Shown one piece after another: positions 14,583-48,254 of a stretch of 64,000 nt of DNA. This DNA comes from Microbulbifer thermotolerans (GTDB taxonomy: Bacteria > Pseudomonadota > Gammaproteobacteria > Pseudomonadales > Cellvibrionaceae), in the NCBI RefSeq assembly GCF_900112305.1, contig NZ_FOKT01000003.1, positions 248,001 through 312,000 on the forward strand, read 5' to 3'. The notes beneath the pieces are model-generated. The model worked only from the letters and a program-made list of their open reading frames with translations, did not search any database and was not told where the DNA came from. Position numbers and translations under genes: made by a program. Each line of letters opens with the position of its first letter. Position 1 is the first letter of the stretch.

Positions 14583-14632
14583 GGAGGCTTTGATTCATTC
14601 GTGGAAGGATTTGGTTGGTTTCGGGGCGCTTC
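14583..14632 (-). repeat. Decayed end of the GGAACCTCTGATT miniature element
   Basis: The first 50 bases after the dctM stop align with the right-hand end of the full elements read in reverse: GGCTTTGATTCATTCG for the terminal repeat, then GGTTGGTTTCGGGGCGCT for the GGTGGGTTCCGGGGCGCT segment. The rest of the element is not recognisable. The remainder of the gap up to the thioesterase gene shows no clear feature. Confidence 0.55.
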
Positions 14633-15271: not shown

Positions 15272-15580
15272 ATGGCTATTACCGCACTATGCATTGCTTT
15301 TTTTTCCACAGTTACCTTTTATGCAGGCATGGCCCTTGCGCGGAGAATCCGCAATAAGTGGTATGCGATCCTTGTGAGGTTGGGCAGTTTCCTTTTAGGT
15401 TTTATTGTCTTAGGAATAGCTGCATTTCTACTAGACGTGCATCCGCTGGTTGCTGAGTTGGCGGGTCGGTATTTCTTTTATATGCTTCTGGCCGGAGCCT
15501 TGGTCTATAAGTTGCTGCTGGTGAAGTTTATTCCTCTACCTCAGGATGACACCGACACACAGAAAAACCAAAGTTCCTAA
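15272..15580 (+). CDS. Small membrane protein, unknown function
   Basis: A 102-residue hydrophobic protein with three likely membrane segments (about residues 3-22, 32-55 and 65-88) and a short polar tail. It begins after an AAGGAAG ribosome site, and no family is recognised. It is AT-richer than the neighbouring thioesterase. Its TAA stop is immediately followed by the terminal repeat of a full miniature element, so the native 3' flank has been displaced without changing the protein. Confidence 0.7.
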   Translation: MAITALCIAFFSTVTFYAGMALARRIRNKWYAILVRLGSFLLGFIVLGIAAFLLDVHPLVAELAGRYFFYMLLAGALVYKLLLVKFIPLPQDDTDTQKNQSS

Positions 15581-15793
15581 GGAACCTCTGATTAATTCGC
15601 GTGAACACTATGGTAGCTTCCTGAGCGCTCAGGCAATAGAACGGACATTTCGAAAACGCTCGAGTACTTCCCTGTAGCTCCGCCGGATACATCCTTGTAT
15701 CAGACGGTTTCGAACTATCCATCCCATTACCTGAACTTCTCATTTGGGTGATATGTCTCTTTGCCGTCCAGGAGCAAATTCATCAGAGACTCC
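15581..15793 (-). mobile_element. Miniature inverted-repeat element, full-length copy C (reverse orientation)
   Basis: This 213-bp non-coding element has a left end GGAACCTCTGATTAATTCG and a diverged right end matching its complement (CAAATTCATCAGAGACTCC). The interior has the same order as copies at 18.3 and 46.4 kb but reversed, including the CTGAGCGCTCAGGCAATAG segment and the central GGATACATCCTTGTATC hairpin. Flanks are TAA on the left (the stop codon of the preceding gene) and TTA on the right. A short minus-strand frame across it is shared with the other copies and is only a by-product of the repeat. Confidence 0.85.
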
Positions 15794-18300: not shown

Positions 18301-18514
18301 GGAAACCTCTGATTAATTCGCTTCCTGACGGTAAAAATTCTTTGGCGCTAGATGAGAAGCTCAGGTGATAGGATGGCCATTTCGAAACCGTCGGATACAG
18401 GGATGTATCCGTCGGAGCCACAGGGAAGTACTCGTGCGTTTTCGAAATGGCCATCCTATTGCCTGAGCGCCACGGAACTAGCCAAAGCGCTCACACGAAT
18501 TAATCAGAGGTTCC
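18301..18514 (+). mobile_element. Miniature inverted-repeat element, full-length copy A
   Basis: Best-preserved copy, 214 bp. Terminal repeats are GGAAACCTCTGATTAATTCG and its complement CGAATTAATCAGAGGTTCC. TTA flanks both sides (18298-18300 and 18515-18517), a likely 3-bp target duplication. Inside, a long stem pairs CTCAGGTGATAGGATGGCC (continuing ATTTCGAAA) with its near-perfect complement some 60 bp on, around a small GGATACAGGGATGTATCC hairpin. No transposase is encoded. It lies between the convergent dctP end and the ankyrin gene's upstream side; apart from copies A and D, the gap of about 435 bp holds no other gene. Confidence 0.9.
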
Positions 18515-26511: not shown

Positions 26512-26644
26512 GGAACCTCTGATAAATCCGCTTCTAGCCGGTAAAGATACGGCGAGGCCAGATAAGTAGCTCAGGTGATGGGATAGGCAGTCTGAGCGCC
26601 CCGAAGCCCACTACAGCGCTCATGCGAATTCATCAGTGGATTCC
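26512..26644 (+). repeat. Internally deleted miniature element copy E
   Basis: 133 bp in forward orientation. GGAACCTCTGATAAATCCGC at the left and GCGAATTCATCAGTGGATTCC in part at the right are diverged terminal repeats. The left segment GGTAAAGATACGGCG and the AGCTCAGGTGATGGGATAG arm are kept, and the sequence then jumps to TCTGAGCGCCCCG, so the central hairpin of about 80 bp is gone. Its right end lies 6 bp from the stop of the LysR gene. Confidence 0.75.
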
Positions 26645-45221: not shown

Positions 45222-46324
45222 CAATCTCTCCCTTCCGCCAAGCGGCCGAGCTGCTCATACTGCTCCAGAAAAGCCTCCGGCAGCTCCGCATAGAGGTGGT
45301 CGAAGATAGCGGTGGGCTTGTCCCTGGGGGTGTCGGCGAAGGCGCGCAGTGCCCGCTCCATTACTTCCGCCAGTTCCCTTCGCAATTCCTCCTCCTGCTC
45401 GTCGCTCCAGAGCCCTTCGCTGCGCAGGTATTTCCCCAGGCGGGCGACAGGCTCTCTGCGCCAGGCGGCTTCAACCTCCTCCCGGGGCTGGTAGCGGCCG
45501 GCGTCGTCGGCGGTGGTGTGATCGCACAGGCGGTAGCAGGTGGCTTCGATCAGGGTGGGGCCCTCGCCGCTGCGGGCCCGCGCCACGGCATCGGCGACCG
45601 CCGCGCGCACGGCGATTACGTCGTTGCCGTCCACTTGCAGTCCGGGAATACCTACGGCTATGGCCTTCTGGGCGATGGTTTTGGCGGCTGTCTGGGCGCT
45701 GCGGGGTACCGAGATGGCCCACTGGTTGTTGTTGATCACCACCACCAGCGGCAGCCGCCACACACCCGCCAGGTTGATGGCCTCAAAGAAGTCCCCGCGG
45801 GAGGTGGCGCCGTCGCCACCACTGGCCACAGCCACCCGCGGTGGCTTATGCAGTTGTTTCTGTTGGTACTTGAGGGCAAAAGCGACACCGGCGGCGTGCA
45901 GGAACTGAGTAGCGATGGGAATGGCAAGTGGCAGATCACAAGGCGCGTGGCGGAAATTCTGGCCCCGTTCGTCGCCGCCCCAGATTGCCAGGATTTCTTT
46001 TATTTCGACGCCGCGCTCGAGCAGGGCGCCGGTCTCGCGGTAATAGGGGCAGTAGACGTCGTCTTTTGCCAGGGCACCGCCAGTGCCGACACCAATGGCT
46101 TCCTGTCCGAGGCTGGACGGATAGGTACCGAGCTGCCCGGTGCGCTGCAGTTTGACCGCGCGATCGTCCACCAACCGCGCCAGGACCATCTGCCGGTAGA
46201 GGGCCAACAGGGTGTCCGGCGTGGCGAAATCCGGTAACTCCTGGGTGGCGCGGCCCTGCTCGTCGAGATACTGCAAGCGGGCAATATCGAAGGAGGCGAG
46301 CAGGTGCATTCTAGGTTTGTGCAT
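45221..46324 (-). CDS. pdhA: 2-oxoacid dehydrogenase E1 component, alpha subunit (PdhA/BkdA1 type)
   Basis: 367 residues. The thiamine diphosphate motif is GDGATSRGDFFEAINLAGVW ending in NNNQWAIS; GQEAIGVGTGGAL and GTYPSSLGQ are the usual N-terminal blocks. Sequence style is closer to the PdhA-like alpha subunits than to pseudomonad BkdA1, but branched-chain versus pyruvate specificity cannot be set by eye. GAGGG site 9 nt before the ATG. It is the first gene of the E1-alpha/E1-beta/E2 operon, placed between glmU and glmR, where most relatives have no gene. Confidence 0.85.
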   Translation of the reverse strand: MHKPRMHLLASFDIARLQYLDEQGRATQELPDFATPDTLLALYRQMVLARLVDDRAVKLQRTGQLGTYPSSLGQEAIGVGTGGALAKDDVYCPYYRETGALLERGVEIKEILAIWGGDERGQNFRHAPCDLPLAIPIATQFLHAAGVAFALKYQQKQLHKPPRVAVASGGDGATSRGDFFEAINLAGVWRLPLVVVINNNQWAISVPRSAQTAAKTIAQKAIAVGIPGLQVDGNDVIAVRAAVADAVARARSGEGPTLIEATCYRLCDHTTADDAGRYQPREEVEAAWRREPVARLGKYLRSEGLWSDEQEEELRRELAEVMERALRAFADTPRDKPTAIFDHLYAELPEAFLEQYEQLGRLAEGRD

Positions 46325-46390
46325 CGGTCAATTCCCTCTTTCCGATGCAAGAAGTGTAATTGATCGCGCGGAAGGCGCAGGGGATGTTAT

Positions 46391-46442
46391 TGAGCGCCTC
46401 GAAACCCGCTACAGTGTCCTTGCGGGTTATTCAGTGACTCCC
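46391..46442 (+). repeat. Right-end remnant of a miniature element (copy H)
   Basis: TGAGCGCCTCGAAACCCGCT, ACAGTGTCCTTGCGGGTTAT and TCAGTGACTCC line up base for base with the right end of copy B (TGAGCGCCCCGGAACCCACC, ACAGTGTTCACGCGAATTAA, TCAGAGGTTCC). It lies just outside the left end of copy B and is followed by the same CTA trinucleotide, so copy B inserted next to an older copy. Confidence 0.75.
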
Positions 46443-46445
46443 TAA

Positions 46446-46658
46446 GGAACCTCTGATTAATTCGTTTCCTGGTAACAGAGATACTTCACGGGCGGATGAG
46501 AAGCTCAGGTGATAGGATGGATATTTCGAAACCGTCGGATACAGGGATGTATCCGTCGGAGCTACAGGGAAGTACTTGTGCATTTTCGAAATATCCATCC
46601 TATTGCCTGAGCGCCCCGGAACCCACCACAGTGTTCACGCGAATTAATCAGAGGTTCC
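46446..46658 (+). mobile_element. Miniature inverted-repeat element, full-length copy B
   Basis: 213 bp, forward orientation, with intact terminal repeats GGAACCTCTGATTAATTCG and CGAATTAATCAGAGGTTCC. The inner stem pairs AGCTCAGGTGATAGGATGG (then ATATTTCGAAA) with its complement around the CGGATACAGGGATGTATCCG hairpin. The right flank CTA (46659-46661) is the glmU stop codon read on the minus strand; CTA also flanks the left side with one extra A. It encodes no transposase. Confidence 0.9.
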
Positions 46659-48020
46659 CTATGATTTCTTGGATGGACGCTTCCAACCGGTGATATTGCG
46701 CTGCCTGCCGCGGGCCACCGCCAGTTCGTCAGCGCCCACTTCACTCGTGATGGTGGAACCGGCACCAACAGTGGCACCGACACCCACGGAAACCGGGGCC
46801 ACTAGCGCGGTGTTGGAGCCAATAAAGGCACCGTCACCGATTTCAGTCGTGAACTTGTTTACGCCATCGTAATTGCAGGTAATGGTGCCGGCACCAATGT
46901 TTACTTGGTCGCCAACAATGGCATCACCAATATAAGACAGGTGGTTTACCTTGCTGCCTCGGCCAATTTTCGCCTTTTTGGTTTCTACGAAGTTACCCAC
47001 CTTGGCGCCATCCGCCAGCTGAGTGCCGGGGCGCAAACGCGCAAAGGGGCCAATAGTGCAGGCTTGACCCACCTCGGCGTCCTCGATCACGGAGTTGGCT
47101 TCAACACAAGTGCCATCCGCCAGACGGCAGTTCTTGAGCAGGCAGTTAGGGCCTATCTGCACCCCTTTGCCCAGAACCACCTGCCCCTCAAAAATACAGT
47201 TGATGTCGATGGATACATCGGTATCGCACTCAAGGCTGCCGCGTACGTCGATGCGCGCCGGGTCCAGCAGGGTGACACCAGCGTTCATCAGCGCCAGGGC
47301 GCGACTGTGCTGTAGGGCGCGCTCCAGCTGGGCCTGCTGGGCGCGGCTGTTGACGCCGGCCACTTCGATCGAGTCACTCGCTCGCACGCCGGTGACCGGG
47401 ATATTCTCGCCGACTGAGCGGGCGATCACGTCGGTCAGATAGTACTCGCCCTGGGCGTTGTCGTTAGACAGCTCCGGAAGCCAACGCGCCAGAAGATCCG
47501 AGGGCGCAGCCAGTATGCCAGTGTTCACTTCGCGGATAGCCAGCGTGTCCGCGTCGGCGTCCTTCTCCTCAATAATCGCCAGCACGCGGCCGGTATCGTC
47601 GCGGACAATGCGCCCGTAGCCAGCCGGATTGGCCATTTCCACCGACAGCAACGCCGGGCCTTTGTCGGACGCAGACAACAGCGACTGCAATGTGCCGACT
47701 TTAACCAGCGGTACGTCTCCGTAGAGCACAAGCACTGTCGACCCCTTGCGAAAGTTGGGTATCGCCTGGGCTACCGCATGACCCGTGCCCAGCTGCTCCT
47801 TCTGTTCCACGAACTTTACACCGCTGTCAGCGAATCGCTCACGCACCAGCTCGGCACCATGACCGACAACGACGGTAATCTCTACTTCTCCGAGCTGCTT
47901 GGCCGTGTCTATCACCCGGCCCAGCATGGGTACACCGCCTATAGGGTGCAGTACCTTGGGCAGGTCTGAACGCATACGGGTGCCTTTTCCGGCGGCGAGG
48001 ATGACAACGTCGACAGTCAT
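46659..48020 (-). CDS. glmU: Bifunctional N-acetylglucosamine-1-phosphate uridyltransferase / glucosamine-1-phosphate acetyltransferase
   Basis: Makes UDP-GlcNAc for peptidoglycan and LPS. 453 residues from [16 protein letters not shown]; 29 upstream in-frame residues are not native. The uridyltransferase domain has [18 protein letters not shown]. The C-terminal left-handed beta-helix has hexapeptide repeats and the acetyltransferase residues around [38 protein letters not shown] and [14 protein letters not shown]. It ends normally (GWKRPSKKS), but its TAG stop coincides with the CTA flanking a mobile element, so the downstream sequence was replaced right at the stop. Confidence 0.97.
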
Positions 48021-48254
48021 GGAAAACCTAAAGCTCGTTGAAGTGGATAAATTGCGGGCATTGTGGCCATTCAAGGGGGGTAACTCAAGGGCACCTCGGT
48101 TCGTCATGAAATTGGGTCATTGGGCGCAATGTGATTGCCGGGAGCAACCCGCGCCGGTAACGTAATGCCCGCAAATTAATCCGTTGCATTTAAATTCGAC
48201 CAATAACAAACCGGATAACCGCCAGCTCACGAGGCCGGCGGGAGGAAATCTCGT

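Follow-up and report, generated by a model that had tools for sequence, protein, structure and literature searches.

The DNA analysed here, referred to as the window, is a stretch of 64,000 nucleotides covering positions 248001-312000 of contig C14 (NZ_FOKT01000003.1) in the 3.92-Mb draft genome of Microbulbifer thermotolerans. At 46446-46658 a 213-bp repeat, which on its sequence is classed below as a MITE, stands with its terminal repeat directly against the stop codon of glmU. The window holds three full 213-bp copies of the repeat and one degenerate copy near 26.5 kb, and an end-like stretch follows the stop of dctM, whose product is a TRAP permease (TIGR00786). A tRNA search of the window found none. 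The features are given below in window positions.

14583..14601, plus strand: end-like stretch after the dctM stop, 4/19 mismatches to the terminal repeat; not counted as an element
15272..15580, plus strand: 102-aa ORF, ending in TAA directly at the element
15581..15793, minus strand: MITE copy adjoining the 102-aa ORF, 213 bp, flanks CTAA / TTAA
18302..18514, plus strand: MITE copy, 213 bp, with an exact 4-bp TTAG / TTAG duplication and no called stop codon there
26512..26642, plus strand: degenerate element relative, matched by the profile in two partial stretches
46442..46445: left target duplication of the glmU copy, CTAA
46446..46658, plus strand: MITE copy adjoining glmU, 213 bp, with terminal repeats GGAACCTCTGATTAATTCG and its reverse complement, both ends exact
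46659..46662: right target duplication of the glmU copy, CTAT, differing in one base from that on the left side; CTA here reads TAG, the glmU stop, on the minus strand
46659..48107, minus strand: glmU (TIGR01173, 614.6 bits)

Abutments on stop codons and copy number

The original prediction placed an element end directly after a stop codon at three loci, and two of these stand. The glmU stop TAG (46661-46659, minus strand) directly adjoins the terminal repeat ending at 46658, and the TAA at 15578-15580, closing what had been described as a membrane protein, directly adjoins the GGAACC at 15581. The glmU protein has the same aligned end residue in all 11 fetched relatives, which are all without the element and whose glmU genes stop with TGA in nine cases, TAG in one and TAA in one; the terminal repeat was not found in the 11 glmU loci of 4.3 kb from these relatives, the best match having 7 mismatches in 19. 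The 102-aa ORF was left uncalled by the gene caller and is probably a gene, being matched in 8 of the 48 genomes from the genus, its own included, and best in another genome by an open frame of 98 aa at 59%. At the third locus, where dctM TAG was said to be followed by the element end GGAGGC, no insertion can be demonstrated, and dctM was rejected as a third insertion on account of a single end-like stretch that lacks both a match to the nhmmer profile and, on reading the region, a second end. Ten mononucleotide shuffles of the window contained no terminal-repeat match with 4 or fewer mismatches, and the stretch could possibly be a relic end.

Over the whole genome, the terminal repeat GGAACCTCTGATNAATTCG has 209 forward and 222 reverse matches with up to 3 mismatches, the reversed control giving 1 on each strand. 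A profile search of 2.43 of the 3.92 Mb, comprising parts of 7 of the 30 contigs, gave 206 match places, of which 99 have both ends and score at least 100; these are the full copies counted in what follows, nine full copies with a score below 100 and 98 partial places being left out, and a first, smaller sample of 1.65 Mb held 61 copies. With a length of 213 bp, too short for a transposase gene, and many copies in the genome, the repeat has the makeup of a MITE. An array of three element units, head to tail with a period of about 172 bp, lies elsewhere in the same genome (G000:C14:16323-16880). The centre of the element (window 46523-46592, about 70 bp) matches repeats in at least 20 of 47 other genus genomes at 75-93% identity, G012, G013, G020 and G028 among them, in a survey that scored six candidates per genome; these alignments end before the terminal repeats, as if different elements had a hairpin core in common.

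The duplicated target and the partner insertion sequence

The duplicated target is a 4-bp YTAR, as derived from the flanks of occupied sites. Comparison of left with right flanks over the 99 full copies gives identity at length 4 in 58 cases and at lengths 2, 3, 5 and 6 in 1, 2, 1 and 0 cases, respectively; when the flank partners are shuffled, identity at length 4 arises in 13.1 cases on average and in 23 at most. YTAR flanks 82 of the 99 copies on one or both sides and is absent from both sides in 17, none of which belongs to the 22 copies at called stops discussed below. In the first sample of 61 copies, CTAG, TTAG, CTAA or TTAA made up the four bases to the left in 43 cases and those to the right in 42, the rarer flanking 4-mers including TTAT, CTAT, CTTT, TTTG and TAAG. 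Of the predicted TAR duplication, the motif is thus retained, being contained in the target, and the length is not, a 3-bp duplication of TAR, TTA or CTA being rejected by the count of 2/99 against 58/99. The copy described as having TTA on both flanks fits that at 18302-18514, which really has TTAG / TTAG, and the one described as having CTA on both sides with one extra base is the glmU copy with CTAA / CTAT; both are 4-bp duplications, the second with one base differing. A duplication of another length had been named beforehand as speaking against the prediction, and in part this is what the flanks reveal, namely 4 bp in place of 3. The target of IS5 is published as YTAR (Py-T-A-Pu) with CTAG as its commonest form (PMC5493358; PMC10359306).

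Matches to the transposase domain PF01609 number five in the genome, four of them at contig ends, as is expected of a repeated insertion sequence that breaks the assembly, and two contig ends have 310 aligned bases in common at 98%. One of these two contig ends (L166) reads CTAG, then GGAACCTCTGATCAACTC, then the C-terminus of a transposase, and the MITE end GGAACCTCTGATTAATTCG matches this end. No complete copy of the insertion sequence was seen in this genome, and its 49-aa C-terminal transposase piece, being partial, scores 45.7 bits to NF033581, below the cut-off of 140. The relative G036 has five matches to the insertion sequence at 84-86%, and in it one copy is delimited by both ends:

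L245:1502-2672 (G036): copy of the insertion sequence with both ends, 1171 bp, flanks TTAG / CTAG

The transposase of this copy reaches 356 bits to NF033581 ("IS5 family transposase", cut-off 140). A further transposase frame of 385 aa (L163) is located in the M. thermotolerans genome at G000:C15:376900-377488, near a MITE copy at C15:377906-378119, and is accompanied by an end-like GGAAGGTCTGAATAACCC preceded by CTAA. Judged from these sequences, the repeats are MITEs of an IS5-group insertion sequence, and since the terminal ends and the target are common to both, they are most likely moved by an IS5-group transposase with matching terminal repeats.

Insertion rates at stop codons and downstream of genes

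All rate tests are based on a purpose-written gene caller, which gave 1828 genes in the 2.43-Mb sample, with the flanks of occupied sites masked and the lengths of the elements taken out of the distances. Among the 82 YTAR-flanked copies, 22 adjoin the stop of a called gene, compared with 7.2 expected if insertions were spread evenly over stop and noncoding sites with the same YTAR tetranucleotide; of the 414 stop-codon YTAR sites in the sample 22, or about 5%, are occupied. Eight more copies, including the one at the 102-aa ORF, adjoin an uncalled ORF of at least 60 aa and were not counted as stops. It had been proposed that landing on a stop codon would keep the stop and leave the protein unchanged; this holds, because the YTAR target includes TAR, and with 22 of 82 copies it is frequent. 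Five of the 22 genes that have an element at their stop, glmU included, were matched in 400 kb of genome G008, at identities of 30, 41, 74, 91 and 93% and with ends no more than 3 residues from that of the own protein, the other 17 being unmatched there.

Insertions and empty YTAR sites were distributed as follows, distances being those from the nearest 3' end:

At a stop: 22 insertions, 392 empty sites
1-10 bp: 4 insertions, 49 empty sites
11-30 bp: 8 insertions, 160 empty sites
31-60 bp: 14 insertions, 231 empty sites
61-120 bp: 11 insertions, 358 empty sites
121-250 bp: 5 insertions, 439 empty sites
251-600 bp: 3 insertions, 553 empty sites
More than 600 bp: 6 insertions, 1387 empty sites
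Neither neighbour's 3' end facing the site: 9 insertions, 977 empty sites

Measured against the YTAR sites 1-120 bp downstream, stop codons have no significant excess (22/392 vs 37/798, OR 1.21, p 0.48), and there is none against the nearer zones either (OR 0.95 vs 1-60 bp and 0.98 vs 1-30 bp). In a logistic model of 4628 sites, the OR of the stop is 1.20, with a 95% CI (0.68-2.11) that still allows a twofold stop effect. Location within 120 bp of a 3' end has an OR of 7.8 (4.5-13.6) in the same model, allowing for start distance, A+T and CTAG, and location within 60 bp of a start one of 0.14 (0.04-0.45); CTAG is favoured among YTAR sites (OR 2.33, 1.43-3.81), and local A+T, with an OR of 1.05 per 10%, has no effect on the insertion rate and was rejected as the cause of the 3' zone. 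Omission of the flank masking and distance correction changes little, giving 7.3 expected copies, an OR of 1.16 (p 0.67) for the stop vs 1-120 bp and an adjusted OR of 1.13. The first sample likewise had no excess, with 13 of 50 copies at stops (13 insertions with 281 empty sites vs 26 with 544 at 1-120 bp). When sites were filtered such that none lay in any ORF of at least 70 aa, the rate at stops (22 with 406) was below that at 1-60 bp (26 with 194), a filter which fell unequally on occupied and empty sites, the filtered table being therefore left out of the rate tests.

In this genome stop codons thus show no significant sign of being preferred and are hit like any other YTAR site of the tolerated 3' zone. 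The enrichment that the original prediction had put up for checking exists relative to all noncoding YTAR and disappears relative to position-matched sites, which means that a stop preference over all intergenic YTAR is numerically true but explained by position, and that the idea of stop codons as favoured targets is not borne out.

None of the 1828 called genes spans any of the 99 copies or starts inside one, and two end inside a copy. These two, of 190 and 408 codons (C14:145471 and C22:48928 of genome G000), end 67 and 11 bases inside the element, which consequently supplies their stop. When the element is excised in silico, the flanks join into an open frame of at least 150 codons in 21 of the 99 cases, a figure that has no control, and some copies may lie in broken genes.

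Mechanism, alternatives and known systems

The explanation that best fits these results, and that is regarded as very probable, is that the repeats are non-autonomous MITEs moved by an IS5-group transposase at YTAR and that stop codons are hit as ordinary sites of a tolerated 3' zone. Directly observed are the element ends, the 4-bp YTAR duplication, the IS5-group ends together with a transposase piece in the genome, and the position rates. In the mechanism proposed to connect them, the IS5-group transposase would use a YTAR target and duplicate it on both sides of the new MITE; where YTAR occurs at the end of a reading frame, as Y followed by TAR in frame, the gene-side duplicate would keep the stop and the protein would remain unchanged. 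Few surviving insertions are found in called genes or less than 60 bp from a start, and copies would accumulate where they do little harm, which is to say at the stop itself and in the first 120 bp or so downstream, with stop codons as ordinary members of the tolerated zone that are not recognised as stops. The 3' zone would arise because harmful insertions are lost, and not because such sites are chosen. It has to be noted that the data cannot show selection, as opposed to site choice, to be the maker of this zone: no age gradient was found, the 3'-zone share being 33/47 in young and 36/52 in old copies (p 1), so that no gradual disappearance of harmful insertions can be seen and an age gradient as proof of gradual purging was rejected.

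The same equality of young and old copies is what would be expected if the element favoured gene 3' ends in general, for instance through destabilisation of the DNA by superhelicity or where transcription ends, and the stop were merely included. The large effect of location within 120 bp of a 3' end agrees with such a preference, as does the published indication that IS5 insertion apparently needs structural features of the DNA besides the tetranucleotide (PMC5493358), but the lack of any effect of local A+T speaks against it, and distant sites, as measured from called 3' ends, could lie partly in uncalled genes or upstream regions, in which insertions would be lost. This explanation is possible, although doubtful. 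A role of the long hairpin as a terminator, or as protection for mRNA 3' ends, is unlikely to be the reason why copies persist downstream of genes. The majority consensus of 76 full-length copies does fold into one long hairpin (-113 kcal/mol), and a separate, alignment-based structure of 58 pairs (-52.1) contains 133 compensatory, 261 one-sided, 137 broken and 3870 unchanged cells, these counts having no control; against it, no intrinsic-terminator-like site is found in 46300-46800 and no Rfam match over gathering scores in the window. Long palindromes are common in MITEs generally, which lessens the weight of the fold.

The remaining alternative concerns the stop codon itself, and evidence in its favour includes a small set from other taxa, in which at least 76 loci with the same terminal repeat were found by means of a TAR-containing pattern. 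The listed loci yield 47 paired elements, 98-206 bp long, that have YTAR on one or both sides; in 29 the two flanks are identical. Of the 47, 13 adjoin the stop of an ORF of at least 100 aa, vs 4.1 expected. The rate at stops among these listed loci exceeds that in the 1-120 bp zone (OR 3.2, p 0.005), in figures for which occupied flanks can count as empty, distances run through elements, and element L221 is counted twice with different left ends. This crude method gives an OR of 1.0 when applied to the M. thermotolerans genome, and the pattern, containing TAR, favours stops, so that the excess may come from the way in which the loci were chosen; yet in an ascertained subset of 41, only 8 of the 12 stop abutments are at the selected end, the other 4 being at the opposite one. 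That GGAACCTCTGAT-ended IS5-type MITEs across proteobacteria hit stops above equivalent neighbouring YTAR, as a safe-site strategy in which the duplication regenerates the stop, is accordingly seen as improbable. These short, YTAR-flanked elements (L168-L243) are in records labelled Gammaproteobacteria and Deltaproteobacteria, and single ends of the same terminal repeat also occur in an Acidobacteriota metagenome bin. It is very unlikely that insertion is steered to TAA/TAG by the transposase or by features of the target such as terminating ribosomes or gene-end structure. The 22 copies at stops do exceed the 7.2 expected from all noncoding YTAR, but in the own genome the rate at stops is not significantly above that in the 1-120 bp zone, with or without adjustment, and shows no excess over the 1-60 or 1-30 bp zones, and the other-taxon set was picked with the TAR-containing pattern.

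With the preferred reading, MITEs moved at YTAR by an IS5-group transposase, the system is largely one already known, an IS5-group MITE with a known target, the minor twist being that this target happens to contain a stop codon. Stop-codon insertion had been put forward as not known to be described for this family; the YTAR target itself is published for IS5 (PMC5493358, PMC10359306), and for the retention of a stop by duplication no description was found, titles and abstract openings containing no report of IS5-type MITEs on stop codons, by which absence from print is not established. The case illustrates how a mobile element can be present in many copies while few called genes are altered, and it is a warning that abutments on stops are not readable as stop-codon targeting without position-matched controls.

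In comparison with IS5, the likeness lies in the 4-bp Py-T-A-Pu duplication, for which CTAG is likewise most frequent (15/24 in a published table, PMC5493358), in rare target variants such as the published CTTT (PMC5493358), also present among the flanks here, and in a partner transposase that fits the IS5 family model NF033581; the MITE differs from IS5 in its 213 bp and in having no transposase gene. In QMITE2 of Coxiella burnetii, a stop codon directly precedes the element at a gene 3' end in one strain, an abutment attributed in the report on it to an indel and not to target duplication (PMC5896051). MITEAba12, with ISAba12 an example of bacterial MITEs that a resident insertion sequence mobilises, is similarly short and has terminal repeats in common with that insertion sequence, with target duplications reported on 40% of its copies as compared with 58/99 here; its duplications are described as 9 bp long with no identifiable sequence trend (PMC6382973), whereas those of the present element are 4-bp YTAR, a target within which the stop codon is contained.
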